Below are positions 1,963-64,000 of a DNA stretch of 64,000 nt, in pieces. The translations under genes and the position numbers were made by a program. How positions within the stretch are numbered: position 1 is the first letter of the stretch; the number at the start of each line of letters is the position of its first letter. This DNA comes from a bacterium. GTDB lineage: Bacteria; Pseudomonadota; Alphaproteobacteria; SP197. The stretch spans positions 1 to 64,000 of the forward strand of contig JAPPGE010000094.1 of assembly GCA_028821455.1 (NCBI GenBank), read 5' to 3'. Under the pieces are notes generated by a model. The model had not been told where the DNA came from and ran no database searches. It worked only from the letters and a program-made list of their open reading frames with translations.

Positions 1963-2729
1963 ATTGAGGGCGTATCGTCGCTGGCACGCCGGCGGTTGCG
2001 AGTTGCCTCTGGCACGATGCGGGCCGCCGGGCCGCCGCGGAAAGTCGGATCAAGAGTGCCCGCAGGATGTTTTCTGATTTCAGTCGCCTGGTGCGACGTT
2101 TCGTGGCGGACGCTTTCGCGCTGGAGAGGTTGATCGGCCGTGCATCCCCGCACCGCAGAGGTCCGAAGCGGGACGTCCCGCCTCCAGGCGCCGATGGCTC
2201 GTGGCGACCCCGGCCATCTCGTTCAACGCCGGATCGTGGCGACGGACTCGGCCCGCAGGGTCAGGGTGCAGAACCTCCAGACGTTGTCCGACGGGCGGAC
2301 GATCTCCAACCGGCAGGTCGCCGAGTGCACCGGGAGGAGTGTGGTCACGGCCTGCCGGCGCTTGGCTCCACGGATTCTTCTCAGCGGGTGCAGCATCCCG
2401 GCCAGGCGGTCGCGCTGACGCGGTAGACCGGTTGGTTCCAATCCAGACTTCCGGTGTTTCCTCATAGGAACTGGTTTCGGCCCTCGAGTCGTCGCGAGCC
2501 GGCCTAAAGACGCAGAAACGGTCGATTGAGTTTCCCGTGAGGAACCTCGATCAGAATCAGCCGAATCGGTGCCCGTACGGGGGTCGGTTTCGGCAATTCG
2601 GTTGCGAGGCCGCGTTCCGGCGCGGCGAAAGCGCCACGTCGAGAATCGGGCGCGATCGGGTCGACCTGCCACATTCCAGCCTGACCGGAACGGCAGACTG
2701 CCGGTGAACGACTCAAGGGGAGAAACACG
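1963..2729 (+). other. 767-base stretch without a supported gene
   Basis: Several overlapping open stretches exist on both strands, but none has a ribosome binding site plus a recognisable protein pattern, and their compositions are arginine-rich as expected of GC-rich shadow frames. I see no tRNA, repeat array or clear terminator. It may hold a decayed gene. Confidence 0.4.
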
Positions 2730-3170
2730 ATGAACACGTTGAAGACGCTGAGGCGCTACGCACGATCAATTGCCGGGCTCGTGGCCGTGAGTGCAGTTGC
2801 CGCGTTCTTCGTGGCCGCATGGACACCATCCGGCTCGGACGCAGGGGCCACCGTGTCGATTGCAGCGCCCCACCCGTCGAGCTGCCATGATAGTGACCTC
2901 CTGGCGAAGAGCTATTTTTCAACGGACGTTGAAGATCAGATGTTCCTGCTTCGGTGCGAGGTCCATGCCATGCGCCTGCAGCTGATCGAGCTGATGCGAC
3001 ATGTCGGCATGACGCCGTTGACACCGCCAGCTCCCTGGACGCTTTCGTGGCAGCGCGATCAGCGATGGCAGGATCCGCCGTTGGCTGGCTCAGCAGTGGA
3101 CACGTGGCAATCGCAACCTGCTCCCTGGATCGCGGTCCCGTTCCTCGAGGCGCCTGAAGCCGGGCAGTAG
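2730..3170 (+). CDS. hypothetical exported or membrane-anchored protein, 146 aa
   Basis: A clear Shine-Dalgarno sequence (AAGGGGAG) sits 7 bases before the ATG. The protein starts with a basic stretch (KTLRRYARS) and one hydrophobic segment (about residues 14-31), consistent with a signal peptide or a single anchor. The rest is proline- and tryptophan-rich, with two cysteines (about 53 and 76) that could form a disulfide in the periplasm. No family is recognised. It stands alone, with about 300 bases to the convergent tRNA-Glu. I trust the start and export signal more than any function. Confidence 0.5.
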   Translation: MNTLKTLRRYARSIAGLVAVSAVAAFFVAAWTPSGSDAGATVSIAAPHPSSCHDSDLLAKSYFSTDVEDQMFLLRCEVHAMRLQLIELMRHVGMTPLTPPAPWTLSWQRDQRWQDPPLAGSAVDTWQSQPAPWIAVPFLEAPEAGQ

Positions 3171-3478
3171 GCTGCGGGCCCATAGGCGCGCCGCCGGAGT
3201 GCGACGGTCGGGAGTGTGATGGCTGCGGAGACGTTCCCGTGGGAGGTTGCCCCCGGCGCGTGGCGAAGGCGGACTCGCTCGGGGTCCGTTCGATATCGAA
3301 GATGAGGTCATCTCTCTCGACGGTGCGCAGGTCGTCGTCCATGAGGTCATCGTGATACGAGAACATAGCAAGAACAGGAACGCCGCCGCCATATCGCCCA
3401 TGAACCCTGGCGTGGCCGATTCGTCCACACCCGGATGCGTTGTCCGAATGAGAACCAACTTTCCAACTCTCGTTAAGG

Positions 3479-3553: not shown

Positions 3554-3614
3554 GTCCGGGGCCGATGTTGAGATAACGGCCCGTCTCGACAATTTCAAGG
3601 GGCACGGACGGGCG

Positions 3615-5402
3615 TCAGGTCGCCACGGCCGCGTCCTCGATGATAAGCTGCGGGCGCTGTTTGCCCCGCCAGGTGTTGATGGCGAGATGCCCGGCAAGGT
3701 GAAAGGCCCCGGTGTCGCTGGTCAGCAGGGCCTTGCCCAACGGATCGTCCGCGACGCGGAACGCGATGGCATCAAGGCGCGCACCGCCGGCATCCCGGGC
3801 GGTCACCCGGACATGGTGGTCCCCGACCCGTTGCGCCCAGCTGACGCGCGCATCCTTGATGGCGAAACGAGGCCGGGCATTGCCGGTGCCGAAGGGACCG
3901 GCGCGCTCGATTGAACGGATCAGGTCCTCGTTGACGGCGGCAACACTGAGAACGCCATCGATGCCGAGTTCGGGCACGTCCGGCAGCGCTGCAATCTCTC
4001 GCGCCAGCTGGTGATCGAGAAATGAAGCGAGGTCGGAGATCCTGTCTTCCTCGACCGCCAGGCCCGCTGCCGCGGGATGACCGCCGCCCCTGACGAGAAT
4101 ACCCTCCTCCACCGCGCGCCCTACCGCGGCGCCGATGTTGACGCCCCTGACGGAACGGCACGAACCCGTGCCGGGGGTGTCGGCCGTGGAAATGACCACG
4201 GCGGGCCGGGAGAAGCGGTCCACCAGCCTGCTCGCCACAATGCCGAGAACACCGGGGTGCCAGTCCTTTCCCGACACCACGCAGCAGTGGCGTGACGCCT
4301 GGGCCTCGGCCTGGTTCATCGCGGCCGCGAGCACGCCTTTCTCGATGCGCCGGCGCTCCCTGTTGCAGTCATCCAGCCTGACGGCGATACCTGCCACCTC
4401 TTCCTCGTCCCGCGAGGTCAGCAGGCGCACACCCAGTGCCGGATCGCCAACCCGGCCGCCGGCATTGATGCGCGGTCCGAACACGAATACCGCATGGTGG
4501 GCTGTCGGATCCTCTGTCAGACGCGCACAACGGCCAAGGGCCATGAGCCCCTCGTTGCCGCCGCGGCCCAGAACCTTCAGTCCCTGGCGCACCAGCGCCC
4601 GGTTCAGTCCGGTGAGGGGAACGCTGTCGCAGAGCGTGCCCAATGCCACCAGGTCGAGCCACTGCATGAGATCGGGCTCGGGACATTGGTCGAACCGGCC
4701 GCACTGACGCAATTCCCTGTTGATCGCGACGACGGTCATGAACGTGACGCCAACGGCCGCCAGGTGGCCCAGCCCGCTGCCGCAGTCGGATCTGTTCGGA
4801 TTGACCAGCGCCGTGGCCTGCGGCAGGTCGCCCGCCACCTGATGATGATCGAGCACGATGATGTCGATTCCCGCCTGGTGGGCGAGACGCAGAGGCTCAT
4901 GTGCCGTGATGCCGCAATCCACGGTCACCACCGGACCTGCGCCTCTCTCCTTCAGGGATGCAAGGGCGTTGATGCTCGGTCCGTATCCCTCCTTCCTGCG
5001 ATCGGGAATATGGACCACCGTCTTCGCGCCGATGCAGTCCAGGTAACGCACGAGAAGGGCTGCCGAGGTGGCGCCATCGACATCGTAGTCACCGAAGATG
5101 CCGATCGTCTCATCGGCTTCGACGGCATCCGCGATGCGCCGGACAGCGTCCGTCATGTCGACCATGTCGAGAGGATCGGGCATCAGGTGCTTCACGCGCG
5201 GTTCGAGAAATCCGTCGACGCCGTCGGCCTCGATGCCCCTGGCTGCCAGGAGGCGGGCCAGAACCTCCGGCAGGCCGAGACGCTGGGCCAGGTCCGAGAC
5301 GGCCTGATCATCGTCAAGACGGTCATTCCAGTACATCCCGGTACATGACCGCGTCACGCCGAGAACCGCGCCCTTGGTTCTAACTGTCTGTCTCAGAGAC
5401 AC
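3615..5402 (-). CDS. recJ: single-stranded-DNA-specific exonuclease RecJ
   Basis: RecJ degrades single-stranded DNA 5' to 3' in recombination and repair. The 595-residue protein has the DHH phosphoesterase core: FGDYDVDG (about 103-110), VTVDCGI (159-165) and the DHH motif (LDHHQ, 185-188). A DHHA1-like domain with GGHPAAAG follows, then the C-terminal OB fold. The start chosen is a GTG that keeps the VLGVTRSxTG stretch seen in alphaproteobacterial RecJ; an ATG 22 codons later (MYWNDR) is possible. In related genomes recJ usually follows hom and glpX directly. Here those two genes lie 18 kb away, on the other side of an accessory island. Confidence 0.95.
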   Translation of the reverse strand: MSLRQTVRTKGAVLGVTRSCTGMYWNDRLDDDQAVSDLAQRLGLPEVLARLLAARGIEADGVDGFLEPRVKHLMPDPLDMVDMTDAVRRIADAVEADETIGIFGDYDVDGATSAALLVRYLDCIGAKTVVHIPDRRKEGYGPSINALASLKERGAGPVVTVDCGITAHEPLRLAHQAGIDIIVLDHHQVAGDLPQATALVNPNRSDCGSGLGHLAAVGVTFMTVVAINRELRQCGRFDQCPEPDLMQWLDLVALGTLCDSVPLTGLNRALVRQGLKVLGRGGNEGLMALGRCARLTEDPTAHHAVFVFGPRINAGGRVGDPALGVRLLTSRDEEEVAGIAVRLDDCNRERRRIEKGVLAAAMNQAEAQASRHCCVVSGKDWHPGVLGIVASRLVDRFSRPAVVISTADTPGTGSCRSVRGVNIGAAVGRAVEEGILVRGGGHPAAAGLAVEEDRISDLASFLDHQLAREIAALPDVPELGIDGVLSVAAVNEDLIRSIERAGPFGTGNARPRFAIKDARVSWAQRVGDHHVRVTARDAGGARLDAIAFRVADDPLGKALLTSDTGAFHLAGHLAINTWRGKQRPQLIIEDAAVAT

Positions 5403-5671: not shown

Positions 5672-6054
5672 GGAGGCAAGGTAACGGTAACCGGTAACAC
5701 CCGCCGCCTTCTCCCTGCCAGGCAGACCCTCTCACACAACCTGGCCATGAGCGGCGGCGATGACCGCACGGCACGGCGCTCAACCAGGCGCAGTCCGGGT
5801 ATCTGCCGCACAACGACCATCGAGTAATCTGAAAGCCCCACCATCAAATGCCGTGCGCACACTCATCGGCCCCGACTTTTTCAACAGCCTCCGCCATTTG
5901 CTGACAGTCCCTTGTCGGCGCAGACAAGTTTGGTTTCCCGTAACAGCTTCGCCCGGGATGATCGTCTGGAGCACCCGCTGAACGGCGGTCCGACGTTTGT
6001 ATGGCGACGAAAAGCTGGCATGCTTGCCTGACGTGTCAACGCGGGAGGTGCCGG
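5672..6054 (+). other. 383-base stretch without a supported gene
   Basis: It begins with a GTAAC-rich direct repeat (around 5679-5699) right after the integrase fragment. No coding frame with a ribosome binding site is seen before the gene at 6055. The repeat is too short and simple to call an attachment site. Confidence 0.4.
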
Positions 6055-6567
6055 ATGATATCGGAACAGCAGAAACGGGAAGTGGCCGAAATGTACCAGG
6101 GCGAGGTGTACGGCGAGGCGTTCTATTGCGCCCTGCTGCACCTGTTCCACACCCCGGTTCAGAAACACCTCATCGGCTCACTGCTGCAACTCGAAACCGA
6201 GACCAAGGCGCGCCTGCGCCAGGTCGTCTTCGAGCATGGCGGCGATATCGTCGAGAGCGACGCCAGCCGGAACGATGCCCGGGCCTTCATTCGGCGCGTC
6301 GAACACATGAGCTGGACCGAGGCGACCACCTATATGGTGGCGGCCAGCGTAGAATTTCAGGATCGTTATCGCGAGATTATCGAATCGGTGCCCAAAGCGT
6401 TGAAGCCAGTCATCAACTCCATGATCCAACACGAGGACTTGATCATTGCCGCCATGAAACTCGCATCCGAAGGCGAGGACGAAAAGGCCATCGAACTGGT
6501 GTCCGGCCAGTTGATGCTTCCTCTCCCAGACCCTCCAGCTCACGCCGCTCCGCTTCCGACAAGGTAA
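6055..6567 (+). CDS. hypothetical helical protein, possibly ferritin-like
   Basis: A 170-residue, mostly helical protein. The start is set by GGGAGG six bases before the ATG; an upstream ATG at 6001 lacks such a site. The pattern MYQGEVYGEAFY, then LQLETETKARLR, and later VEFQDRYREI and MIQHEDLII, shows glutamate and histidine residues spaced on helices as in ferritin-like di-iron bundles, but I cannot assign a named family. No signal peptide or membrane segment is present. It lies inside the island between recombinase remnants and could be cargo. The C-terminal tail is proline-rich and probably disordered. Confidence 0.5.
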   Translation: MISEQQKREVAEMYQGEVYGEAFYCALLHLFHTPVQKHLIGSLLQLETETKARLRQVVFEHGGDIVESDASRNDARAFIRRVEHMSWTEATTYMVAASVEFQDRYREIIESVPKALKPVINSMIQHEDLIIAAMKLASEGEDEKAIELVSGQLMLPLPDPPAHAAPLPTR

Positions 6568-13971: not shown

Positions 13972-14496
13972 TTACCGGAGCAGGTCATGGAAACTGTTGA
14001 GTGCAAGTCGGAAGCAGTGCCGGGTAGCCCATTCCTGCTTGATGCGATCGGCCTCTGCGATGATCAGCAAACCTTCGCGAATCATCGAGAGGACGAGGTC
14101 TTGCGTCGCGAGGATGCGCAGGGTTGCGCTGGCACTGCGCGCATGGCTGGTGGCAAGGCGATCGTCGATAGCGAGGATGTAGCCACGGCTGACGGCGAGG
14201 GCGGAACACTCGCCGGCGCCAAGACGCCCGGTCGCCATCACGGATCCGAAGATTTGAAGCTCTGCCAGCGTTGCAACACGGGTTTCCGAGATGGCGCCCG
14301 CACCGACAGCTGCGGCAAAGCGCTGTTGCTGGTCGGGATACCGGTCTGTGACTTCTGCCGCTACGTGATCGGTGACGATGAATTCGTGAGAGAGGCCGGC
14401 GAGCAGGTCCGTCCGGTCGATGCGCAGAAAGTTGATGAGCACTGACGCGTCGGTGACGATGATCGCCGGCCGGTGTTCTCCCACGAGCTGCGTCAT
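13972..14496 (-). CDS. PIN-domain protein (toxin-like RNase)
   Basis: A 174-residue PIN-domain protein. The acidic catalytic positions are visible: Asp in IIVTDASVLINFL (about 15), Glu in GAGECSALA (about 97), and Asp in AIDDRLA (about 113). PIN domains of this type cleave RNA using magnesium or manganese. The gene overlaps the stop of the upstream Xre-ImmA/IrrE gene by four bases (ATGA), so the two are co-translated and probably form a toxin-antitoxin-like pair. The C-terminal half (EADRIKQEWATRHCF) is helical. No frameshifts, so it is probably functional. Confidence 0.78.
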   Translation of the reverse strand: MTQLVGEHRPAIIVTDASVLINFLRIDRTDLLAGLSHEFIVTDHVAAEVTDRYPDQQQRFAAAVGAGAISETRVATLAELQIFGSVMATGRLGAGECSALAVSRGYILAIDDRLATSHARSASATLRILATQDLVLSMIREGLLIIAEADRIKQEWATRHCFRLALNSFHDLLR

Positions 14497-51619: not shown

Positions 51620-52744
51620 CTACAGGCCGGCGATGATATCTTCCCAGGTCTCCAGCATCAGTTCGTCAATCGCCGGATCCATGGGAACCCAGAAGGCGGT
51701 CCCTTCCATCAGGCGCACGGGATCGTCGTAACCGAGCGCCACGAGGGTCTCGGTGTCCACGAGGTCGAAGGACTTGATGTTGCCGTGACCATAGCCGTAG
51801 GCCTCGATGAGAAACTTGCCGGTTTCCGGCGCCAGCCACGCATCGATGAAGTCGTAGGCCATCTGTTCGTCGTTCTCGGCCGCGGCCAGGCGTACGAGAC
51901 CACAGGCCCAGCCAAAGGCGCCTTCCTTCGGCGCCGCGAAGGCAACCGGAATCCCCTGATCGAGGAGATTGACGAGAGCCTCGTTCCAGGCGTAGGCCAC
52001 GACGCACTCGCCGGAAGCGATAGCCTGTTCCATGTCGGTCTGGCTGTCCCAGTAGAACCTGACGAGGTCACGCTGCTTGCGTGCCATGTCAGCGGCTTCC
52101 ATGACCTGTTCGGGCGTGGGATTCATCGGGTCATAACCCAGAATCTTGAGTGGAACGAAGATGCTGGCCGTGGTGTTCCTGGCACAGATGCGGCCCGCGT
52201 ACTTCTCGTCATACATGTACATCCAGGACTCCTCGCCCTCGATGATATCGGTGCGATAGATCATCGATGACAGACCGAAGTCCGTGATGACCATGTAGAC
52301 GTCGCCGTCGATCACGGCGCCGTTCATGGTATGAAGGGCGGGGAACATGTCGTCCCAATAGCTGACACGCGACGTGTCGATCGGCTGCACGACTCCCGCA
52401 TCATGCCAGCGCGGCACACCATCGACGCAGGGGTGGGCGAGATCGGCGACAAACCCGGCCCGGATCTTCTGCAATCCGTCCTCCGCCGAGGCGAAGATCG
52501 ACCAGTCCGGCGACCGACCGTGCTTGTCGAAGAAGGGCTGGTGAAGTTCCACCGGTTCGTAACCCGACCAGGTGAAGTAGTGGATCATGTCGCCCTCGGC
52601 CGCCATCGCAGGCGATACCAGCGACGAGGCGACCGGAGCCACCCCCGCCGCGGCGGCGGCAGCCATGAAGTCACGGCGGTCGATTTCGCGGTTGATCAGC
52701 TTCTTCTGCAACTGCTCGACACGCGGTTTTCTCAACACATGCAT
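51620..52744 (-). CDS. PotD-like extracellular binding protein 2
   Basis: A 374-residue binding protein. A twin-arginine leader (IDRRDFMAAAAAAG) precedes the mature domain (DMIHYFTWSGYEPVELHQ, later AFAAPKEGAFGWACGLV). It is a close paralogue of the gene just upstream, with most residues the same. AAGGAG lies ten bases before the ATG. The two form a tandem without an adjacent permease or ATPase. It probably binds polyamine-like or small cationic ligands by family. Confidence 0.88.
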   Translation of the reverse strand: MHVLRKPRVEQLQKKLINREIDRRDFMAAAAAAGVAPVASSLVSPAMAAEGDMIHYFTWSGYEPVELHQPFFDKHGRSPDWSIFASAEDGLQKIRAGFVADLAHPCVDGVPRWHDAGVVQPIDTSRVSYWDDMFPALHTMNGAVIDGDVYMVITDFGLSSMIYRTDIIEGEESWMYMYDEKYAGRICARNTTASIFVPLKILGYDPMNPTPEQVMEAADMARKQRDLVRFYWDSQTDMEQAIASGECVVAYAWNEALVNLLDQGIPVAFAAPKEGAFGWACGLVRLAAAENDEQMAYDFIDAWLAPETGKFLIEAYGYGHGNIKSFDLVDTETLVALGYDDPVRLMEGTAFWVPMDPAIDELMLETWEDIIAGL

Positions 52745-52801
52745 TGTCTAGTCACTCCTTTGTATTGTTTCAAAGATGACGGGCTGATGACTGATCCGGC
52801 T

Positions 52802-53929
52802 CTACAGACCGGCCATGACATCCTCCCAGATCTCGTACATGAGCTGGGTGATATCCGGATCGACCGGAATCCAGAAGTTGGTGCCCTCCATCAAACGCAC
52901 GGGGTCGTCATAGCCAAGTGCCACGAGGGTGGCGCGATCCACCAGATCGAACGACTTGATGTTGCCGTGACCGTATCCGTATGTCTCGATGAGGTACTTT
53001 CCGGTCTCCGGCGTGAGCCACGCGTTGATGAAATCGTAGGCCATCTGTTCGTCATTCGGGGCCGAGGCAAGGTACACGAGACCGCAGGCCCAGCCGAAGG
53101 CTCCCTCCTTGGGCGCGGCAAAGGCTACCGGAATGCCCTGGTCGAGGAGATTGACGAGGGCTTCGTTCCAGGCATAGGCGACGACGCACTCGCCCGTGGC
53201 CACCGCCTGTTCCATGTCGGTCTGACTCTCCCAGTAGAAGCGGGCCAGCGGACGCTGCTTGCGGCCCATGTCGGCGGCTTCCCTGACCTGCTCGGCCGTC
53301 GGGTTCATGGGATCGTAACCCAGCAGCTTGAGTGCGATGGAGAGGTTCGCCGTCCCGGCATTGGGGCAGATGCGACCGGCATACCGCTCGTCGAACAGCA
53401 TGTTCCAGGTCTCCTCGCCCTCGTAGATGTCGGTGCGGTAGATGACCGACGAAAGCCCGAAGTCCGAGATCGCCATGTAGACTTCGCCGTTGATCGTCGC
53501 GCCGTTCATGGTGTGAAGCGCCGGGAACATGTCGTCCCAGTGATCGATGCGCGAGGTATCCAGCGGCTGCAGAACGCCCGCATCGTGCCAGCGCGGCACA
53601 CTGTCGACGCAGGGATGCGCAAGATCGGCTTCGAAACCAGCCCGGATCTTCTGCAGGCCATCCTCCGACGAGGCGAAGAGCGACCAGTTCGGCGATTGGC
53701 CATACTTGTCGACAAAGGACTGGTGCAGCTCCGGCACCTCGTAGGCTGACCACGTGAAGTAGTGGATCATGTCGCCCTGGGCGGCCCCGGCGGAAGGAAC
53801 AACCGACGAGGCGACTGGCGCCAGCCCCGCCGTTGCGGCGGCCGCCAGGAAATCGCGGCGTCCGATTTCGCCGTTGAGCAACTTCCTCTGCAACTGCTCG
53901 ACGCGCGGTTTTCTCAACACATGCACCAC
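52802..53929 (-). CDS. PotD-like extracellular binding protein 3
   Basis: A 375-residue paralogue of the next gene downstream (57 bases apart, same operon). The leader is IGRRDFLAAAATAG and the mature part has DMIHYFTWSAYEVPELHQ. The GTG at 53929 is preceded by GGGGAGG at the right distance; the following GTG (53926) would also fit. Paralogues of this kind diverge in ligand preference while sharing a transporter. The third member is at 32454. Confidence 0.88.
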   Translation of the reverse strand: MVHVLRKPRVEQLQRKLLNGEIGRRDFLAAAATAGLAPVASSVVPSAGAAQGDMIHYFTWSAYEVPELHQSFVDKYGQSPNWSLFASSEDGLQKIRAGFEADLAHPCVDSVPRWHDAGVLQPLDTSRIDHWDDMFPALHTMNGATINGEVYMAISDFGLSSVIYRTDIYEGEETWNMLFDERYAGRICPNAGTANLSIALKLLGYDPMNPTAEQVREAADMGRKQRPLARFYWESQTDMEQAVATGECVVAYAWNEALVNLLDQGIPVAFAAPKEGAFGWACGLVYLASAPNDEQMAYDFINAWLTPETGKYLIETYGYGHGNIKSFDLVDRATLVALGYDDPVRLMEGTNFWIPVDPDITQLMYEIWEDVMAGL

Positions 53930-54563: not shown

Positions 54564-55349
54564 TCAGCCGATTGGGCCGGGTCCGTCATAAGTCCAACGA
54601 TATCGCGGAGGTGTGGGCCCCTTGTTTCTCCCGCCCTGCTGCGCCTGCTCCCAGGCGTGGGCCAGCACGCCAACCGACCGCGAAAGGCAGAACAGGCCGT
54701 GCGCCAGCGGTGGATCGAAGCCGAGTTCGGCGTAGATGACCGCTGTTGCCCCGTCGATGTTCATCGGCACCGGCGTGCCCTTGGCCGCATTCAGCACCCG
54801 CTGCACTGCCCGGCCAATGGTGGCGTAGCGCCCGGAAACCGTGCCCTCCTCAGCCGCCTCGTCTACCAGTGTCAGCAGTCGAGGCGCACGCGGGTCCTCG
54901 GGCTTGTGGAATCGGTGACCGAAGCCCGGCACGAAGCGCGACCGCTCCGACCGCCATCGCTCGACTACCGCTCCTGCTTTCTCCGGCCCGCCCGCGGCCT
55001 CGATCATGTGGTACAGTTCGACCGCCTGCTCACCGGCGCCGCCATGCACGTCGTCGAGCATGTTCACCGTCGAGGCCAGAGCCCCGTTCAGTCCCAGCCC
55101 GCAGGTCACCGCCATCCGCGCCGCGGCGATTGAGGGCGCCTGCGGCCCGTGATCCACCGCCGCCGCCAGGGCCGCCTCCAGAAGTCGTGACTGTGCTTGC
55201 GAGGGCAGCTCACCCCGCAGCATCAGCCAGATCATCTGCGGAAAGCTCACGTTCCCGATCAAGTCCTGGATATGATGCCCGCGAACTTTTATGACCCCTG
55301 GCGCCATGTCGATGATCGAGGTGCGCCACCAGTCCGATACATCGTTCAT
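54564..55349 (-). CDS. citryl-CoA lyase-like protein (citrate synthase fold)
   Basis: A 261-residue short citrate-synthase-type protein. Citrate synthase active-site His and Asp equivalents are in PGFGHRFHK and the later VLAHAWEQAQQGG region; the sequence resembles stand-alone citryl-CoA lyases, which split a citryl-CoA-like thioester into acetyl-CoA and an oxoacid. It ends in a natural tail (NKGPTPPRYRWTYDG). Its ATG overlaps the stop of the CoA-transferase gene (ATGA), so the two act in series. It is the last gene of the eight-gene operon. Confidence 0.85.
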   Translation of the reverse strand: MNDVSDWWRTSIIDMAPGVIKVRGHHIQDLIGNVSFPQMIWLMLRGELPSQAQSRLLEAALAAAVDHGPQAPSIAAARMAVTCGLGLNGALASTVNMLDDVHGGAGEQAVELYHMIEAAGGPEKAGAVVERWRSERSRFVPGFGHRFHKPEDPRAPRLLTLVDEAAEEGTVSGRYATIGRAVQRVLNAAKGTPVPMNIDGATAVIYAELGFDPPLAHGLFCLSRSVGVLAHAWEQAQQGGRNKGPTPPRYRWTYDGPGPIG

Positions 55350-56536
55350 AGCGCCCCCTCTTTCCGCAGCCGTTCGATGTCCGATGAGCTCAGCCCAAGG
55401 GCGCCATAGACTTCTTCATTGTGCTCCCCGAGACGGGGCGGCGGAGTCTCGACGGAAGGGGCTTCACCGTCCAGCTTCACACCCGTCCGCACGATCCGAA
55501 TTCCGCGCCCCACCCCCGGAGCATCGCCAAACTCCGCCAGCATGTCGCGTTCGGCGATCTGCGGATGGGCGAGGATGTCCGGCACCGTGAACACCGCGCC
55601 CGCCGGGACGCCAGCCGCATTCAGCTCCCGCGCCCAGTTGCGTGCCGGGCGGATGGTCAGGACCTTTTCAAGTTCCGCCTTCAGTTGCCGTCGGTTCGTC
55701 TTGCGGTCCTCGCGCGCATGGTAGTCGGGATGCGTCTTCAGTTCGGGGCGACCCAGGTGGTCGCAAAGTGTTTCCCATTGCTCCTGTTTGTTGGCGGAGA
55801 TGTTCAACAAACCGTCTGAACATTGGAATGAGCCTGAAGGCGCGGCGGTGACATTCTCGTTGCCCTGAGGCTCCGGCTCGACCCCTGCGATGAGCCAGTT
55901 CGACACCACCCAGCCCATTGTCGCCAGCATCGCCTCCAGCATCGAAACGTCGATGAACCGGCCCCGCTCACGATCGTTCAGAGCCGCTGCAATCGCGAAG
56001 GCTGCGCTGATGCCGCCGATCGTGTCGGCGACCGGATAGCCCGCCCGCAACGGCGCGCTCTCGCTGTCTCCGGTGATCGACATCATCCCCGAAGCGCCCT
56101 GCACAATCTGATCATAAGCCGGGCGTTCGCGCCACGGCCCGGTCTGGCCGAACCCGGAGATGGCGCAGTAGATCAGGCGGGGGTTGACCTCACGCAGCAC
56201 CTCCCAACCGAGTTCCAGCCGATCCATCACGCCCGGCCGGAAGTTCTCGACCAGTACATCTGCCCCCGCAACCAGCCTCTTCAGCAATGCCTTGCCCTGA
56301 GCGTGCTTGAGATTGAGCGTGATAGACTTCTTGCCCGCGTTCTGGGCCAGAAATGAAACCCCCATCAGTCGCCGGTTCAGCTCCGCGTCTGCACCAAGCT
56401 GTCGGGCCAGATCGCCTCGTCCCGGAACCTCGACCTTGATCACCTCGGCTCCGAGATGCGCGAGCTGGTGACAGCAGAAGGGTCCGGCCAGCACGTTGGT
56501 GAGGTCGAGCACCCGAACATCCCGTAGCGGCGCCAC
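55346..56536 (-). CDS. class III CoA-transferase (CaiB/BaiF type)
   Basis: A 396-residue class III CoA-transferase. Family motifs are LDLTNVLAGPFCCHQLAHLG, VENFRPGVMDRLELG, and the catalytic Asp region in PAYDQIVQGASG. The GTG at 56536 has AAGGAGG at the right distance. It would activate a carboxylate to its CoA thioester, which the downstream lyase could split. It starts 11 bases after the aldehyde dehydrogenase stop. Confidence 0.9.
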   Translation of the reverse strand: MAPLRDVRVLDLTNVLAGPFCCHQLAHLGAEVIKVEVPGRGDLARQLGADAELNRRLMGVSFLAQNAGKKSITLNLKHAQGKALLKRLVAGADVLVENFRPGVMDRLELGWEVLREVNPRLIYCAISGFGQTGPWRERPAYDQIVQGASGMMSITGDSESAPLRAGYPVADTIGGISAAFAIAAALNDRERGRFIDVSMLEAMLATMGWVVSNWLIAGVEPEPQGNENVTAAPSGSFQCSDGLLNISANKQEQWETLCDHLGRPELKTHPDYHAREDRKTNRRQLKAELEKVLTIRPARNWARELNAAGVPAGAVFTVPDILAHPQIAERDMLAEFGDAPGVGRGIRIVRTGVKLDGEAPSVETPPPRLGEHNEEVYGALGLSSSDIERLRKEGAL

Positions 56537-56547
56537 GCTCCCCTCCT

Positions 56548-58041
56548 TCAGCCGCCATAAGCAGCGTGGACGACCTTGGCCACGGTGAAGAACTCCCGGC
56601 ATTCGCTGCCCTTCTCGGGCGGCCCAAAGGACGAATGCTTGCGGCCCGTGAAGGGCGCGTGGAAGTCCATACCAGCGGTCGGCAGGTTGACCTGCGCCAT
56701 CCCCGCCTGGACAGAGGCGAGGAAGTGGTCGATGCGTGCGCGGTTCTTTGTCACGATTCCAGCCGACAGTCCGAAGTCTGTGTCGTTGGCGACAGCGAGG
56801 GCTTCCTCATAAGTCCCGGCACGGATCACCGCGGCGATAGGGCCGAAAATCTCCTCGCGGCAAATTCGCATGTCTGGGCGTGCAGAGGTGAACAAGGCGG
56901 GCGAAAGATACCAGCCCGGTGTTGCCCGAGCGAGGATATCGCCGCCAATGGCACGGACGGCACCCTCCCGCTCCCCGACATGGACGTAGTCAAGGTGAAT
57001 GGCGCGTTGGGGCTCACTCACCACGGGTCCGATATCAGTTCCGGACTTTCGGGCATCATCCACGCGAAGCCTGGCCATTTTCTCGACCATCTGCTCGACA
57101 AAAGTGTCGTGAATGCCGCCAGTAACGATGAGTCGCGACGAGGCGGTACACCTTTGCCCGGCCGAGTGAAAGGCCCCCGCAATCGCCAAATCCGTCGCTT
57201 CGTCCGGATCGGCGTCATCGAGCACAATGAGCGGATTCTTGCCCCCCATCTCGAGCTGCATCCTGCCGCCGCGCGCAAAGATCTCGGCACCCATTCGGCG
57301 ACCGACGTCCGTCGATCCGGTGAAGGTCACGCCTGCAACGTCCGGATGCGCCGCCAGAGCCGCTCCCACGTCTGCGCCTTGCCCCATCAAGAGGTTGAAC
57401 GCCCCCGCTGGCAGCCCCGCACGCGCGATGATCTCGGCAAGCGCCCAAGCGGACCCCGGCACAAGCCCGGCGGGTTTGAAGACCACCGTATTCCCGAAGG
57501 CAAGCGCCGGCGCGATCTTCCAGGCCGGAATAGCGAGCGGAAAATTCCATGGCGTGATCGCGCCGACGACGCCCAGAGGCTCCCGGCGAACCTCCAACGT
57601 CACGCCTGGGCGTAGCGACCTGTAGGTGGCGCCCTCGGCGCGATAGGACTCCGCCGAAAAATACTTGAAGATCTGGCCCGCGCGCAGCGCTTCAGCAACC
57701 GCCTCGGGAAGGGTTTTTCCCTCCTCCCGAGCCAACAGGTCGCCCAGTTCATCCTTGCGTGCAATGATTTCGGTCCCGATGGCATCCAGGACCTCAGCTC
57801 GAGTCCCTGCCGGGCCTTGTGCCCAGTGCGGAAACGCAGCCTTGGCCGCGGAAACAGCGTCCTCCACGTCGTGAGCGGATGCACGCGCATAGGTGCCTAC
57901 GATGTCCCGTGTGTCGGACGGGTTCACGTTCTCCAACGCGTCGGCGCCCTCGCGCCAGCTGCCCGCAATGAAGTTCGGTCGTACTCCAGTGACATGGGGG
58001 TGAGGCGCACTCAAAGCGGACACTCCAGAACAGGACGCCAT
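56548..58041 (-). CDS. NAD(P)-dependent aldehyde dehydrogenase
   Basis: A 497-residue ALDH of the 2-oxoglutarate-semialdehyde/gamma-aminobutyraldehyde type. The catalytic Cys is in GQRCTASSR and Glu in LEMGGKNPL, with the cofactor loop GSTDVG. It would oxidise an aldehyde to the carboxylic acid used by the downstream CoA-transferase. The start at 58041 has GAGGA seven bases before it and overlaps the preceding gene by 31 bases; a GTG at 58023 is possible. Confidence 0.93.
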   Translation of the reverse strand: MASCSGVSALSAPHPHVTGVRPNFIAGSWREGADALENVNPSDTRDIVGTYARASAHDVEDAVSAAKAAFPHWAQGPAGTRAEVLDAIGTEIIARKDELGDLLAREEGKTLPEAVAEALRAGQIFKYFSAESYRAEGATYRSLRPGVTLEVRREPLGVVGAITPWNFPLAIPAWKIAPALAFGNTVVFKPAGLVPGSAWALAEIIARAGLPAGAFNLLMGQGADVGAALAAHPDVAGVTFTGSTDVGRRMGAEIFARGGRMQLEMGGKNPLIVLDDADPDEATDLAIAGAFHSAGQRCTASSRLIVTGGIHDTFVEQMVEKMARLRVDDARKSGTDIGPVVSEPQRAIHLDYVHVGEREGAVRAIGGDILARATPGWYLSPALFTSARPDMRICREEIFGPIAAVIRAGTYEEALAVANDTDFGLSAGIVTKNRARIDHFLASVQAGMAQVNLPTAGMDFHAPFTGRKHSSFGPPEKGSECREFFTVAKVVHAAYGG

Positions 58042-58718
58042 CCAATGTCCTCATGCCGATGGTCGACCGTGTTCAGGTAAAAGAAGTTGGCGGCAGCATA
58101 GCCGCGACAGCAACGCGCCGACGCACGCCGTGCAAAGGGCGTCGCGGTCCAGCTATGCGCACCCACCCAATTCCAGAAGCCGTTGTGACTGCCCAATCGT
58201 TGCGCCTCACCAAGGGGCTCAGCCAGGTCGCTATTCGAAGGCAGCGGCAATCCCGCGACCGCTTCCTCCGCGACGACGAAGCGGTCCCATTCGTTGTCGT
58301 TGGGCGCCCCGCCGGAATGGCCGTCTTCGCCCGTTCTGAAATTACAGCCGCCGGAAAGGAGCCGACACGTATACGTGCCACCGTCCAGAACCACTGGCAC
58401 GCCGCTCACGAGGCCCGCCTCATCCAGGTCCTGCCAGCTCACTCGGACCAGGATCACCCGATCGCAAATGAGAAGGCGCAGTTTCTCCGTCCGCAGTGCA
58501 ATCCAGCGAAGCCGAAATGCAGGGTCGGCAGGAGTGTCCGCCAGCGCCCATCGGGACCAATCCGGCGTCGCCTCAAATTCTGCAATATTGCCTGGCTCGA
58601 GGCCCGGGTATGGTTGCAGAACAGACAGATCGACGATCCAGGGCCTGGTTGGGCGCGGCAGCGGCACGCCATCGTGATTCAGCGCACCAAGCTCGACCGT
58701 GCCGTCGAATGTGGTCAT
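58011..58718 (-). CDS. unrecognised 235-residue protein with GWRPVLE end
   Basis: The protein has RLLSGGCNFRTGEDGHSGG followed by NEWDRFVVAEE and, near the C-terminus, NGFWNWVGAHSW and GWRPVLE. The NEWD and G-RPVLE pattern occurs in scattered bacterial proteins of unknown function with a lectin- or formylglycine-enzyme-like fold. No signal peptide is present. Its ATG overlaps the active ureohydrolase stop (ATGA), and its end overlaps the aldehyde dehydrogenase start, so it is translated with both. It might be a scaffold or chaperone of the ureohydrolase complex; this is a guess. Confidence 0.7.
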   Translation of the reverse strand: MTTFDGTVELGALNHDGVPLPRPTRPWIVDLSVLQPYPGLEPGNIAEFEATPDWSRWALADTPADPAFRLRWIALRTEKLRLLICDRVILVRVSWQDLDEAGLVSGVPVVLDGGTYTCRLLSGGCNFRTGEDGHSGGAPNDNEWDRFVVAEEAVAGLPLPSNSDLAEPLGEAQRLGSHNGFWNWVGAHSWTATPFARRASARCCRGYAAANFFYLNTVDHRHEDIGWRPVLECPL

Positions 58719-59734
58719 ACGGACTGCGCCGGGGATGACACGAACATCCGGTTCCGCAGGACACGAAACAGCATGTGAGCGGCGATTCGCTCGGTTCTGC
58801 CGGAGGGGTCAAGAGACGGCGCCACCTCAGCTATGTCGAGTCCGTCTATAGGTGCGACACCGATGATGTCGAGCATACGGCAGTACTGGCTCGGTGTGAT
58901 CCCGCTATGCACGATAGAGCCCGTTCCGGGGAGGAAACCCGCATCCATCGCATCGATGTCAATGGAAAGGTACAAGCGATCCACACCACGCATGGCATGG
59001 GAGACGGCTTGCCTGGCGACGGTTTCCGCACCCAGTCGATGGACATCGCCGGAGGAGAAAACTCGACCGCCCATGTTCTCGATGAGCTCCAAATCGCCGC
59101 CATCGACCCAGCCGGTAATTCCGATCCAGACCATGTTGGCTTGAACGACGTTGGGCAATTCGGAAATTCGCCGACCGTTCGTCGCGTGGTTCAAGGCGCC
59201 CCAGGCCCCAAGCTCGTCGGAGAAATCCAGATGACCGTCCATTTGAATGTATCCGAACCGAGCCTCAGGTTCCTTCTCCGCAAGAGCCCGCGAATAGCCA
59301 AGGCAGGCTGGATAGCTGTTGTAGTGGTCCCCGCCCAAGGACAAGGGTATGCCGCCTCTGGCGCGTACAGTGCATGTCATCTTGGCAATCGCCTCGGTCG
59401 TATGTTCGACGGAGGCCGGATCGATCTTTGCGTCACCGCAGTCGACGATCCACCTGCCGCGCCTCATCGAAAGCTGCGCTCCCGAATCCGGATCGACACA
59501 GTCAGTCGACGCCAAGTCGAATGAAGCTGCCAAAAGCTCCGTCGTTGCCCGGCGCAGCGCCCGAGGACCGAGCCGCGCGCCAATTCGGCTTGAGTGGGTC
59601 CAATCCGACGGCATGCCGACGACGCCGATCTGGTTTCCGGCCACATCTTCGGGCCGGACGAAAGGCGCATCGAACAGTGTTGCTGACGGAGCCTTGAGCG
59701 CAGGTACCAGTCCTGGATCTCGAACCTCGGGCAT
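58715..59734 (-). CDS. ureohydrolase (arginase/agmatinase family) with complete metal site
   Basis: A 339-residue ureohydrolase. All six manganese ligands are present: His137 (GGDH), Asp166, His168 and Asp170 (DGHLD, with Gly in place of the usual Ala), and Asp259 and Asp261 (SIDID). It should hydrolyse a guanidino or amidino group to urea and an amine. It is the only one of four paralogues in this operon with an intact site. Three bases separate it from the upstream paralogue, and it overlaps the 235-residue gene. The start is the first ATG. Confidence 0.92.
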   Translation of the reverse strand: MPEVRDPGLVPALKAPSATLFDAPFVRPEDVAGNQIGVVGMPSDWTHSSRIGARLGPRALRRATTELLAASFDLASTDCVDPDSGAQLSMRRGRWIVDCGDAKIDPASVEHTTEAIAKMTCTVRARGGIPLSLGGDHYNSYPACLGYSRALAEKEPEARFGYIQMDGHLDFSDELGAWGALNHATNGRRISELPNVVQANMVWIGITGWVDGGDLELIENMGGRVFSSGDVHRLGAETVARQAVSHAMRGVDRLYLSIDIDAMDAGFLPGTGSIVHSGITPSQYCRMLDIIGVAPIDGLDIAEVAPSLDPSGRTERIAAHMLFRVLRNRMFVSSPAQSV

Positions 59735-59737
59735 TTC

Positions 59738-60727
59738 CTACGCACTTTCTCTTTCAAGGGACGACAGCACCCTCAATCGGCCGTAGATGAAACCAAGCAG
59801 GAGGGTCACCAGAAGGCGCTGCCCGGTTTTGACAATGCTCAGGCCGCTGAGTGTGGGATTAAGTCCGGTCATGATGAAGCAATCGACCGGCGCCTGGCCG
59901 ATAGCGGCAAGGGCATTCTGAAGGACAGCGACGGACAGACCGTCAAACCTTGGCGTATTGCTCATGCCGTGCAATGGCGCCGAGAGAGCCGTCAGATCGA
60001 GATGCACCGCAAGCGCTCCCTTTCCGGCAGCCAGGCGCTTGGATATGTCCGCGATCTTCCCAGAACTCATACCGGGAAGGTGCCTTGCTTCAATCAACTG
60101 GCCGCCGGCCTTGGCCAGGTCGGTGCAAAACTCGGCCGTTGGGACCTGCGCCGGCGCGATGAACAGCGTCGACGCCAGCGCGACGTCCCCGGCAGCGACT
60201 GGCCGCGAAGCCGAGGATCTGTCGTCCCCGATATCCCGTCCGCATGACGGGACAATTCCGCCAATCTGAATCAGTGAACATGGATTTTCGGTTCGCAGAC
60301 CGGACAAGGCGGGGGCGACTACTTCGTCGTCACCGCCCAGCAGAATGCTTGCGGCACCGCGCGTTCTTATCGCCGCAATGGTCATCCCTATTGCCTGTTT
60401 GCCACGGCTGCCCTCGGCGTTGTTCAACGCCACATCACCGATATCGACGAGGCGGTCGTGAATCGATGATGTATCGATTCGCTTCCTGGCGTCGACGTCA
60501 ACAGGTTGACTGAATTGCGGATTTGCGTGCCATCCAAAATAAACCGACGTTTCGCGGAGCGCACGGGGACCGAACCGGCAACCGCTCTTCGGGCCCCAGT
60601 TCCGCTCCAGCGGAGCACCGAGCACCGCCAGATTGTCTGGACCCAGCTCCTCGATCGTCGCCCGCCTTGCGCGCATGAATGTCAGGTCGCCGGCCATTCT
60701 CGGCAGGGGCGTGGTCCTTACCGACAT
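59738..60727 (-). CDS. degenerate ureohydrolase paralogue B
   Basis: A 329-residue arginase-fold protein that keeps the frame (NWGPKSGCRFGPRALRET) but lacks the metal site: GGDH is GGDD (131-134), the DxHxD motif is GGIVP (156-160), and SxDxD is HLDLT (242-246), so at most one ligand (Asp244) remains. It cannot be a normal hydrolase. Intact length and a tight operon position suggest it is kept for structure, for example as a non-catalytic subunit. It overlaps the next upstream gene by ten bases. Confidence 0.85.
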   Translation of the reverse strand: MSVRTTPLPRMAGDLTFMRARRATIEELGPDNLAVLGAPLERNWGPKSGCRFGPRALRETSVYFGWHANPQFSQPVDVDARKRIDTSSIHDRLVDIGDVALNNAEGSRGKQAIGMTIAAIRTRGAASILLGGDDEVVAPALSGLRTENPCSLIQIGGIVPSCGRDIGDDRSSASRPVAAGDVALASTLFIAPAQVPTAEFCTDLAKAGGQLIEARHLPGMSSGKIADISKRLAAGKGALAVHLDLTALSAPLHGMSNTPRFDGLSVAVLQNALAAIGQAPVDCFIMTGLNPTLSGLSIVKTGQRLLVTLLLGFIYGRLRVLSSLERESA

Positions 60728-61656
60728 GGCCCATGCCCGGGCAACATGGCCTCTATCAGTTCAAGTCCAATTGCCGCCACGGCCTCGGTCGCGGATCGCC
60801 CGGTCAGATCGAAGTCCGGCCGATGTCCGGCAAGATGTGCGATCGGGATCGCGAGGTTGTGCAAGGAACGCAAGACGCACACAACCGTTTCCGCAGGAAG
60901 GCCCGGGCTTTCCGGCAAGGTCGCTTGCTCCACCGCCGCCCCCGCCAAGACATCGGCGTCGATGCTCAGGAAAATTGCCGAGAAGCCGTTTGCCCAACAC
61001 AAGAGCCGATCGATGATCCGGGATCTGCCATCCCCACGGAGTTGGCCCGCGGTCACAAGCAGCGTACCGGCGGCGCAGTTGCTTTCCTCGGTCGTGACCA
61101 GGCCTCTCACACCCAACAAAGCAACATCATGCACTCCACCTGCGAGCATTGATGCGATTCTTGACGTTGTGATCCGCCGTTCAGGCAAGTTGGTTCGCTC
61201 GCCATCAAACGATTGCAGATCCATGTTGCTGGAGAGACGCAACAATCCATAGGAGGCCCCGGGCTGCGCTCTCAATGCGCCCCCCAACAGAGCGGGCGCC
61301 AGGCTGTAGTCACCGCCCAGAATCAGCAGCCGTGCGCCGGTATCGATGACCCTTGCGCATTGCTCGCTGATGACATCTTCGGTTCGCACCGGTTCAAGCG
61401 GGAACACCTTCAGATCGTCAATGTCCACCAAATGCTCTCTGCGCAAATTGCGTCCGACCGAAGAGTGCAATTCCGTGCCACAGTACCGAATCTGCCTGGC
61501 GGCAAAACGAGCCGCCGGTGGCCGGCCTCCAAAATGGTCGCAGTGCAGACCGGTCATCGCCACGTGGTTCGATGTAAGATCCTGCAACGTGCCTGTTCTG
61601 GCCCCAAAAAAGGTCGCGACCGGTATCGTGCGCATGCGGTCCGGAGGTGCCGTCAT
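60718..61656 (-). CDS. degenerate ureohydrolase paralogue C
   Basis: A 312-residue paralogue. GGDH reads GGDY (114-117), DxHxD reads SSNMD (142-146), while SIDAD (231-235) is intact, so three of six ligands remain (Asp146, Asp233, Asp235). It may bind a single metal or none. Its start overlaps the stop of the first gene (ATGA) and its end overlaps paralogue B. There are no stop codons or frameshifts, so it is not a decayed pseudogene. Confidence 0.85.
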   Translation of the reverse strand: MTAPPDRMRTIPVATFFGARTGTLQDLTSNHVAMTGLHCDHFGGRPPAARFAARQIRYCGTELHSSVGRNLRREHLVDIDDLKVFPLEPVRTEDVISEQCARVIDTGARLLILGGDYSLAPALLGGALRAQPGASYGLLRLSSNMDLQSFDGERTNLPERRITTSRIASMLAGGVHDVALLGVRGLVTTEESNCAAGTLLVTAGQLRGDGRSRIIDRLLCWANGFSAIFLSIDADVLAGAAVEQATLPESPGLPAETVVCVLRSLHNLAIPIAHLAGHRPDFDLTGRSATEAVAAIGLELIEAMLPGHGPCR

Positions 61657-62573
61657 AGCCGCATCTCTTCATGCAAATGCCCGCCAATTGCCGCGAGCAG
61701 ACCGGCAGCGGCTGCGTGTTCCGTAATTCCCCGAGCGTCCAGCCCAGGTGCGGTATTCGTAATGACGACTCCGGCCAATTCGTGTCCGCTGACGGCACCA
61801 AGCAGTTCCACGAACTGCTCAGGCGTTAACCCACCAATGTTGACAATGGGTGTCCCGGCGGCGTGCCCGGTATCCAGTACTCCCATGTCGATATGCAGGG
61901 TCGTCGCACCCTGCTTGTCCAGGAATGATCGGATTTCGTCCTTTGCTGTCTCCACGCCTCGGTCATCGATACTCGTTGAGGTGCGAATCGAGTGATTTCC
62001 AGACTCTACTGATCTCCAGGCTGGCATTGGCTGGAGCCCATTGACTCCAATGCAAAGAAGAGCACCGCGCTTGACCATCGCCGTCTGATCCGGAGAAGGA
62101 ACCTGGGGCGCGAAACGGATGAGCGCAGTCTCTGGTGCTGCCTGGAAAATCGCTCGCAACATGCTGTCCGCCGCAAGGCCGTCACCGCCGAGCACGACAG
62201 GCACTGCGCCACGATCAAGGATCTGGGTCGTCAGGACGGCTACCGATTTCCTGGCGGTCTCGCGCCGTGTCTCCACCAAACCAATATCGCCGAGATCGAA
62301 ACCGATATCGCCTGAGCGAAGTTTGCGCGTAATGCGGCGATGCAGATCAACCACCGAACCGGATGGAGATTCGAAATAGGGTTGCAATTGTTCAACTGAA
62401 GCTTCTCTCAGGGCTGCAGGACCGTCTGCTGTCCCAGATCGACCCGGGGGCAAGGGGTTGGATGATACGCCGAATACCACCAGAGATCCGGATTTCACGC
62501 TTTCAACAGGCGAAAGCCGAAAGGCCGCGAAACCGGGCGTCATGCCCCCTAAACCGTCAGAGCGCGGGTACAA
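61653..62573 (-). CDS. degenerate ureohydrolase paralogue D
   Basis: A 306-residue arginase-fold protein and first gene of the operon. GGDH is GGDG (129-132), DxHxD is APQVP (155-159), and SxDxD is HIDMG (227-231), leaving one ligand (Asp229). The start is probably a TTG at 62573, because GGAGGGG lies six bases upstream; ATG codons at 62612 and 62543 are alternatives with poor ribosome binding sites. It faces the IclR gene across about 165 bases. Confidence 0.75.
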   Translation of the reverse strand: MYPRSDGLGGMTPGFAAFRLSPVESVKSGSLVVFGVSSNPLPPGRSGTADGPAALREASVEQLQPYFESPSGSVVDLHRRITRKLRSGDIGFDLGDIGLVETRRETARKSVAVLTTQILDRGAVPVVLGGDGLAADSMLRAIFQAAPETALIRFAPQVPSPDQTAMVKRGALLCIGVNGLQPMPAWRSVESGNHSIRTSTSIDDRGVETAKDEIRSFLDKQGATTLHIDMGVLDTGHAAGTPIVNIGGLTPEQFVELLGAVSGHELAGVVITNTAPGLDARGITEHAAAAGLLAAIGGHLHEEMRL

Positions 62574-62739
62574 TTGTTGCCCCTCCAAAATTGAGAGAGT
62601 CGGCACCGCCATCCTGGTTCTGATCGCTTGCCTTATCGGGGTGACTAACGGTATGAGTGTCCCGCGTACCGGGCTGAATCGGGCGCCGAGCGGCTGTCGA
62701 TCCAGCCCACACACGAGATGAGCGACGTGGAGGAGAATC
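62574..62739. promoter_or_regulatory. divergent promoter region between operon and IclR gene
   Basis: This 166-base space must hold the promoter of the ureohydrolase operon and that of the IclR gene. IclR proteins usually bind palindromes here and repress the operon until the substrate is present. I cannot mark a palindrome or -10/-35 box with confidence. Confidence 0.45.
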
Positions 62740-63495
62740 GTGGCCAAGAGGGAGAGCGACAGTGGCGCCACCCATACCGAGCGACGCCCGAATGACGGTT
62801 TCTCCGGGGTCGAATCTGTCGAGCGTGCCCTCACCCTGCTGAACGTCTTTCATGACAGTCCAGCCGCCCTTCCACTCAAGGACATGGCAATACGAAGCGG
62901 GCTTACCAAATCCACGATACTGCGGCTTGCTGTCTCGCTGGAACGCTTTGGGTATCTTGCGCGGGACAAGGACGGCCTCTATCACCTCGGGCCCATGCTG
63001 TGGCGTCTTGGTTCGGTATTTCGGCAGAACTTGAATCTGGGCGTCGTTGTAAGGCCCGTCCTTCTCGACCTTGTGAACAAAACCGGAGAAAGCGCGTCGT
63101 TCTACGTACCGCGTGGTGACATTGGCGTGTGCCTTTACCGCGTCAACTCGAACCGACTGGCGCGGGACCACGTCGAGGAGGGTGACGTGATCCCGTTCGG
63201 TCTCGGCTCGTCCGGGCAGATCCTGAGAGCCTTCAGCGGGGGTAAGGGCGCAGCGGCCAGCAGAATTCGACAACAGCGGGTCTATGTCAGTCTGGGCGAG
63301 AGGGATCCGGATGTTGCCGGAATCTCCGCTGCGGTCCTCGGGCCGGAGGAGGAACTCATAGGTGCCGTCAGCCTCTCCGGGCTTTTGACCAGATTTACGA
63401 AGGATACAACTCCGAACTACCGCAAGACCGTAATCAGAACAGCAAGAGAGATCGAAGAACGGATAGGTGCGCGCGACAGACTCACCGGACGTTAA
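62740..63495 (+). CDS. IclR-family transcriptional regulator
   Basis: A 251-residue IclR regulator. The winged helix-turn-helix is at about residues 25-85 (ERALTLLNVF, then LPLKDMAIRSGLTKSTILRL) and the effector domain begins near 105 (VRPVLLDLVNKTGESASFYV). The GTG start follows GGAGGAGA. It is divergent from the ureohydrolase operon and is its likely regulator. It ends 44 bases before the convergent permease gene. Confidence 0.92.
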   Translation: MAKRESDSGATHTERRPNDGFSGVESVERALTLLNVFHDSPAALPLKDMAIRSGLTKSTILRLAVSLERFGYLARDKDGLYHLGPMLWRLGSVFRQNLNLGVVVRPVLLDLVNKTGESASFYVPRGDIGVCLYRVNSNRLARDHVEEGDVIPFGLGSSGQILRAFSGGKGAAASRIRQQRVYVSLGERDPDVAGISAAVLGPEEELIGAVSLSGLLTRFTKDTTPNYRKTVIRTAREIEERIGARDRLTGR

Positions 63496-63539: not shown

Positions 63540-64000
63540 CTATCGCTCCCCTCTTCCCCGACGGCCGATCAGCTGTATGCCGATCAACGCCAGAACAGAG
63601 ATCGCGATCAGGCAAGTCGAGATTGCCGCGACAGTCGGTTCGATCTGATCACGCAATGCGTTGAACATGCGCCGAGTGATGGTCGCGTACTCGCCGCCCG
63701 AGATCAGCATCGCAACCACGACTTCGTCGAGAGAGGTAATGAAGGCCAGGAACGCTCCCGCCTGCACCGAGAATTTTACCTGCGGCAGCGTCACGTCAAG
63801 CATGGCTCGTGGCCGAGAAGCGCCCATGCTGCGCGCTGCAAGTTCTTGATTGAAATCGTAGCTCTTGAGCCCCGAAAGCACCGTAATAATCACGAAGGGC
63901 AACGCCAATGCGACATGGGCAATGACAACACCTGCCAGTGTGTAGTTCAGCCCGAGCTTGGCATAGAGGTGGAATACGCCGACCGCAATGAGAATGATCG
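63540..64000 (-). CDS. PotC-type ABC permease, partial (5' end beyond the window)
   Basis: The frame continues unbroken to the window edge and is the C-terminal 152 residues of a spermidine/putrescine-type permease. The coupling-loop signature AARSMGASRPRAMLDVTLPQ and the segments VALALPFVIITVLSGLKSYD and VQAGAFLAFITSLDEVVVAM are characteristic of PotC. It is convergent with the IclR gene. Its partner genes lie outside the window, possibly in an import operon linked to the ureohydrolase pathway. Confidence 0.88.
   Translation of the reverse strand, partial: IILIAVGVFHLYAKLGLNYTLAGVVIAHVALALPFVIITVLSGLKSYDFNQELAARSMGASRPRAMLDVTLPQVKFSVQAGAFLAFITSLDEVVVAMLISGGEYATITRRMFNALRDQIEPTVAAISTCLIAISVLALIGIQLIGRRGRGER

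Follow-up and report, generated by a model that had tools for sequence, protein, structure and literature searches.

The citryl-CoA lyase of Hydrogenobacter thermophilus functions in the reductive TCA cycle alongside an ATP-dependent citryl-CoA synthetase. A citryl-CoA lyase structure presumably from this organism (6hxp) was the nearest solved structure (E 1e-39) to a lyase-like protein, CCL, encoded in the 64,000-nucleotide stretch of DNA analysed here (the window). Like 6hxp and family NF004864, CCL is a short lyase of the citrate synthase fold, and it shares their His/His/Asp set and pair of Arg; unlike 6hxp it has another C-terminus, and its partner is a CoA-transferase in a catabolic-looking setting, whereas the known citryl-CoA lyase is paired with citryl-CoA synthetase. 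This partner, CaiB, is of the same family as the class III CoA-transferases of the succinate-glutarate, succinyl-CoA:mesaconate and oxalate types and its top NCBIfam scores were to dicarboxylate transferases, but they lay far under the equivalog cut-offs and no named substrate fits. The CaiB-CCL pair with its overlap also occurs in roseobacter TctDE/TctCBA-CaiB-CCL loci (e.g. Ruegeria sp. THAF33), which unlike the window have a tricarboxylate-type transporter instead of an ABC transporter and are without ureohydrolase genes, the orphan gene X235 or an aldehyde dehydrogenase (ALDH) gene.

PMC11399263 describes metformin hydrolase as an alpha2beta4 assembly whose beta subunits lack metal but are required for activity, and metformin hydrolase and dimethylguanidine hydrolase (MefH, DmgH) resemble the window's cluster in having intact and degenerate ureohydrolase paralogues side by side. 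The cluster differs from them in having four paralogues, three of them degenerate, and in that ALDH, CaiB and CCL come after. We modestly favour the reading that the cluster is a catabolic operon that would break down a guanidino compound taken up by the cell, with CaiB and CCL catalysing the two final steps; its reactions, substrate and products we infer. The pair is laid out as follows:

54564–55349, minus strand: CCL, citryl-CoA lyase-like protein of the citrate synthase fold, 261 aa (435.5 bits for NCBIfam NF004864, 'citryl-CoA lyase', with its cut-off at 261; Pfam Citrate_synt, E 4e-36, its sole Pfam match; 6hxp match)
55346–56536, minus strand: CaiB/BaiF (class III) CoA-transferase, CaiB, 396 aa, from a GTG start at 56536 to a stop at 55346 (Pfam CoA_transf_3, E 4e-122, profile positions 1–366 of 366 covered)
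55346–55349, minus strand: ATGA overlap of the CaiB stop and the CCL start, read from the sequence

The initial annotation described an ATGA overlap coupling a CaiB/BaiF transferase to a short citrate-synthase-fold lyase, and the overlap is real, the plus strand reading TCAT at 55346–55349; the span it gave to both genes, 55346–56536, holds the transferase only. An alternative, longer ORF of CaiB starts from ATG at 56602. CaiB scored under all NCBIfam equivalog cut-offs, the top one being succinate-glutarate CoA-transferase (283.9 bits against 750). Its translation contains a YDxxxQ motif, the Asp of which may be the catalytic aspartate of class III CoA-transferases. The full-length domain places CaiB in this family, and CoA transfer is predicted. 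Two tandem genes for PotD-type solute-binding proteins (51620–53929) lie downstream of the lyase gene, outside the 13 conserved genes described below.

When CCL was aligned with 6hxp, the DHG, HGGA, PGFGHR, DPR, NIDG and SR positions matched. Residues His67, His102, His145, Asp152-Pro-Arg154, Asp199 and Arg224 were retained in 104–105 of 105 aligned rows from 112 lyase loci, seven of which yielded no row. The His, His, Asp and two Arg line up with 6hxp and with citrate synthases, and from what is known of citrate synthases the conserved residues are presumably the catalytic and carboxylate-binding ones. The third citrate synthase arginine could not be placed in the CCL family, which has a near-invariant Arg241-x-Lys243-Gly-Pro instead; the C-terminus of 6hxp differs from this ending. 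By score and residues CCL falls within the citryl-CoA lyase family, and cleavage of citryl-CoA is predicted. The HpcH/HpaI-type TIM barrel of CitE-type citramalyl/malyl-CoA lyases was not matched by CCL in Pfam.

The 112 loci comprised the best 80 genome contigs, eight plasmid regions (of 29 plasmid matches), 22 sampled genomes, the window and locus L117; the contig search, which gave at least 80 loci, was taken best first and is hence biased toward close relatives. CaiB ended directly upstream of the lyase gene in 98 of the 112, best 80 contigs included (14 were without it), and in 93 of these 98 adjacent pairs the lyase start overlapped the CaiB stop by four bases (92 of 97 distinct pairs, since L014 and L159 share the same lyase DNA), which exceeds chance. 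Among the 110 loci that remain without the window and L117 (threshold E ≤ 1e-15), CaiB was found in 102, TctA in 44, TctC in 45 (TctC-type labels being set by similarity to one annotated locus) and IclR in 42; the best 80 contigs within this set gave CaiB in 79, IclR in 28 and ALDH in three. In a draw from the phylum, the lyase family was present in 23 of 398 genomes at E ≤ 1e-60, the window's included, and 22 of these were over the cut-off. CaiB and CCL form a widespread proteobacterial module, often beside TctABC transporters. It apparently lacks prior characterisation: in the literature outside most subscription journals, no paper was found on the CaiB/citryl-CoA-lyase pair, alone, with Tct or with ureohydrolases.

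The neighbours of the module bear on its substrate. Aconitase-like, PrpF-like and RraA-like genes lay on the Tct side in five loci (L019, L025, L041, L045 and L068), four of the five aconitases being cut by the locus edge. In L068 the aconitase was over its NCBIfam cut-off and PrpF under it (308 bits against 441). With Tct-CaiB-CCL downstream, these five are possible loci for aconitate or methylaconitate degradation. In Azospirillum and Agrobacterium the arrangement was IclR / ALDH-CCL-CaiB-TcuA-like, the Agrobacterium TcuA-like protein scoring 350.5 bits against a cut-off of 369 for tricarballylate dehydrogenase; such a gene occurred in two of the 110 loci. In Roseibium aggregatum and in L171 the order was CaiB-transporter-ALDH-iron alcohol dehydrogenase-CCL. 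ALDH adjoins CaiB/CCL in all three genera, with ALDHs only 34–39% identical to that of the window, and an ALDH gene beside the lyase or the pair was recorded in L122, L125, L126 and L171.

TPP enzymes were encoded downstream on the same strand in Azoarcus, Methylobacterium and the sampled genomes L160, L161 and L166. CaiB was not found beside the lyase in L160, L161 and L166, and these loci encode a CoA-acylating-type, SauS-like aldehyde dehydrogenase (425 bits against a cut-off of 600), of which no match was obtained in the otherwise similar L164. Because the CoA-acylating-type enzyme and the TPP enzyme replace CaiB there, a CoA ester formed from an aldehyde may precede the lyase step in these three loci too. 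These contexts suggest that the lyase acts after formation of a CoA ester from a tricarboxylate-type aldehyde or acid, and we infer 'citrate semialdehyde' as the aldehyde of the TPP loci. In L160, L161 and L166 a TRAP transporter, a dehydroshikimate dehydratase-like gene, the lyase, the CoA-acylating-type aldehyde dehydrogenase and the TPP enzyme are grouped; the set may serve to turn dehydroshikimate or protocatechuate into citryl-CoA.

The acid had been expected to be a dicarboxylate, and a substituted succinate needs a 3-hydroxyl to be cleaved by a lyase of the citrate synthase fold. A citrate-type hydroxy-tricarboxylate is more likely than a succinate, plain or substituted, because CCL keeps the residues of citryl-CoA lyase and citrate synthase and because its neighbours elsewhere (TctABC, aconitase, PrpF and TcuA-like) are of the tricarboxylate type. 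Plain citrate, however, could go to aconitase, which makes CaiB and CCL seem needless, so that the acid may in reality be an analogue of citrate; a superfluous CoA route speaks for such an analogue or for a demand for oxaloacetate. The acid would be citramalate or another 2-alkylmalate, split to acetyl-CoA and pyruvate (or another 2-oxoacid), in a reading that we regard as unlikely: it accounts for the use of a CoA route, given that the TCA cycle could take up citrate directly, and the Arg241-x-Lys243-Gly-Pro C-terminus does not match that of the solved lyase, but both citrate synthase arginines that could be aligned (154 and 224) are retained, the module's contexts (Tct, AcnA/PrpF, TcuA-like) are tricarboxylate-like and, to our knowledge, citramalyl-CoA lyases described so far belong to the CitE type, with a fold other than that of citrate synthase.

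The citrate-type reading is taken up again below with the genes upstream of the pair, which are these:

56548–58041, minus strand: aldehyde dehydrogenase (ALDH), ketoglutarate-semialdehyde-dehydrogenase-like (Pfam Aldedh, E 8e-150; NF042993, 484.8 bits, under the cut-off of 770)
58011–58718, minus strand: X235, an orphan protein, conserved but of no family (nothing matched in NCBIfam or, at E ≤ 1, in Pfam)
58715–59734, minus strand: UH4, ureohydrolase with intact metal site (Pfam Arginase, E 5e-55)
59738–60727, minus strand: UH3, degenerate ureohydrolase paralogue (Pfam Arginase, E 2e-13)
60718–61656, minus strand: UH2, degenerate ureohydrolase paralogue (Pfam Arginase, E 5e-20)
61653–62834, minus strand: UH1, degenerate ureohydrolase paralogue (Pfam Arginase, E 2e-23)
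62740–63495, plus strand: divergent IclR-family regulator (Pfam HTH_IclR, IclR_C)
63540–64000, minus strand: permease of the ABC transporter, whose other three genes lie past the window end (from the ORFs)

The UH1 ORF overlaps the IclR gene, and its real start is probably further downstream. On L118 the transporter genes were permease (541–1353), permease (1357–2247), ATPase (2244–3380) and substrate-binding protein (SBP, 3576–4769), and the window's four transporter proteins were 67–77% identical to their L117 counterparts. A second gene like that of the SBP lies upstream of the transporter genes (L118:5585–6844).

In six of six UH4 sequences all seven positions of ligand type (H, D, H, D, D, D and E) were retained, and UH1, UH2 and UH3 had lost the GGDH His and most other ligands in all 18 (six each; the identical L182 was omitted and the window's UH1 was read from 62615). 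The top PDB matches of UH4 were two 'agmatinase 2' entries (9fek and 7esr/7oi1), which we take to be guanidine hydrolases, followed by others and by metformin hydrolase subunits (8ryi/8snf). UH1–UH4 in the seven genomes described below possibly form a predicted four-part heteromeric ureohydrolase. Unlike in the metformin hydrolase operon type, no nickel-chaperone genes were found among the 13 conserved genes. Genome G000 gave 18 arginase-family matches, some of them split matches of one gene; among the 18 are two domains that lie in a single open frame of 788 aa at G000:C6:3816–5705.

Neither Pfam nor NCBIfam gave a match to X235, and the PDB gave no convincing one; viral contigs had no relative, and there were weak partial matches on three plasmids. 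X235 was 50–52% identical to the copies in the clusters compared, and its single-sequence AlphaFold2 model, with a pLDDT of 29.5, was uninformative. A C-terminal motif around HRHEDIGWRP was retained in six of six aligned copies, and X235 serves as a marker of the cluster. It was found in one of 16 genomes in the window's order and one of 398 in the phylum draw (the window genome itself in both). The orders of G299, G037 and G642 yielded it in one of 15 genomes (G299 itself), five of 390 and none of 297, respectively, some genomes occurring in more than one of all these draws. G299 was the one further genome from a UH2 search of 385 genomes of the class. In seven of seven X235-bearing genomes found, the genes for SBP, ATPase, two permeases, IclR, UH1–UH4, X235, ALDH, CaiB and CCL were in identical order; L181 and L182 were identical in the genes compared, giving six distinct clusters including that of the window. 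Two orders other than that of the window were found to contain the cluster; within the window's order, X235 and the window-type lyase were missing from the other 15 genomes. Between the window and the other clusters, UH1 and UH2 were 32–36%, UH4 65–66% and ALDH 63–66% identical.

The initial annotation had suggested looking for a tie between the pair and arginase-type genes. It exists in the seven X235 genomes, the cluster of each ending in CaiB/CCL, but not in general, UH1–UH4 and X235 being found in none of the 110 other lyase loci, best 80 contigs included (E ≤ 1e-15). A general bond of the pair to arginases was accordingly rejected, and the idea of an accidental link was also rejected after six further complete clusters were found.

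Across 13 pairs compared among L117 and L179–L183, the eleven upstream genes were 66–96% identical (100% for L181/L182). CaiB was 90–94% identical within {L117, L179, L180} and within {L181–L183} and 60–61% between these groups; CCL was 91–94% identical within {L117, L179} and within {L180–L183} and 58–60% between. Downstream of the intact lyase, four loci held a C-terminal lyase fragment of 65–70 residues, in each case closest to the L117 lyase:

L180, 13783–13995: lyase fragment, 91% identical to the L117 lyase
L181, about 5869–6057: lyase fragment, 52%
L182, about 5736–5930: lyase fragment, 52%
L183, about 14247–14456: lyase fragment, 81%

No fragment was found in L179, and the L117 contig stops shortly past its lyase. 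The fragments look like the scar of a displaced lyase.

Trees were built, most of them by quick searches, from 39–54 rows that were hand-chosen among the 112 loci and the newly found clusters. A single CaiB clade was rejected for six ureohydrolase clusters (AU p 1.5e-10) and for seven (9.5e-51), L037 and L067, with distant CaiB, being dropped from these tests and from the second CCL test. The window and L117 as a clade gave AU p 0.0022 for CaiB alone and 0.00125 for CaiB and CCL concatenated (L027 dropped), two-row tests that were run after the identities had been seen. For CCL alone a single clade was not rejected (AU p 0.38, from a tree that was not a quick search, and 0.21). The IclR proteins of the window and L117 were sisters with support 100. 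These results show that CaiB in the ureohydrolase clusters stems from at least three lineages behind congruent upstream genes, i.e. gene replacement. CCL was probably replaced too, as supported by CaiB, the concatenation and the leftover fragments and not by its tree alone. Since CaiB was exchanged while the upstream genes stayed congruent and IclR sister, the step seems needed and its parts look interchangeable.

That the pair serves an unrelated tricarboxylate and lies downstream of the ureohydrolase genes by chance would agree with its usual occurrence without them, but we rate this as very improbable, the pair standing at the cluster end in seven of seven genomes despite divergence of UH1 and UH2 to 32–36% (window against the others) and being re-supplied after replacement.

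In the catabolic reading preferred here, the ABC transporter would import a guanidino compound, and a hetero-oligomeric ureohydrolase, with UH4 catalytic and UH1–UH3 as metal-less partners, would strip its guanidine group. The remaining skeleton might become an aldehyde through hemiaminal or enamine hydrolysis, X235 or an enzyme outside the cluster, the cluster having no aminotransferase or amine oxidase to make it. ALDH would then oxidise the aldehyde to a citrate-type acid, a 3-hydroxy acid whose hydroxyl carbon also bears a carboxylate, and CaiB would transfer CoA onto it from another thioester. CCL would split the 3-hydroxyacyl-CoA, releasing acetyl-CoA and an oxoacid for which oxaloacetate is the likeliest candidate; acetyl-CoA plus an oxoacid are the best-fitting end products. 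CaiB and CCL would in this way be a portable module that may also serve behind TctABC tricarboxylate uptake. The reverse direction, in which CCL would condense acetyl-CoA with the oxoacid of the guanidino compound and CaiB would then recover the CoA, draws on the fold common to citrate synthases and the reversibility of CoA-transferase reactions, but is the least probable alternative, as CCL is short, over the lyase cut-off and far under all synthase cut-offs in NCBIfam, and often stands beside uptake transporters in catabolic-looking loci.

A new route of guanidino catabolism, running from a four-paralogue ureohydrolase through an ALDH-made citrate-type acid and an exchanged, Tct-shared CaiB/CCL module to acetyl-CoA and an oxoacid, is put forward tentatively. 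The cluster predicts a four-paralogue ureohydrolase, which would go past the two-subunit metformin hydrolase. Annotations in many heterotrophic bacteria name members of this lyase family citryl-CoA lyase, its pair with a CoA-transferase being without a paper that we found, and the Tct, aconitase/PrpF and ureohydrolase contexts of the pair, together with its swapped genes, offer direct ways toward its substrate. If the proposed route is true, the module would be a general citryl-CoA-type exit in many proteobacterial pathways, one of which would follow a dehydroshikimate dehydratase and involve both a TPP enzyme and an aldehyde dehydrogenase of the CoA-acylating kind.
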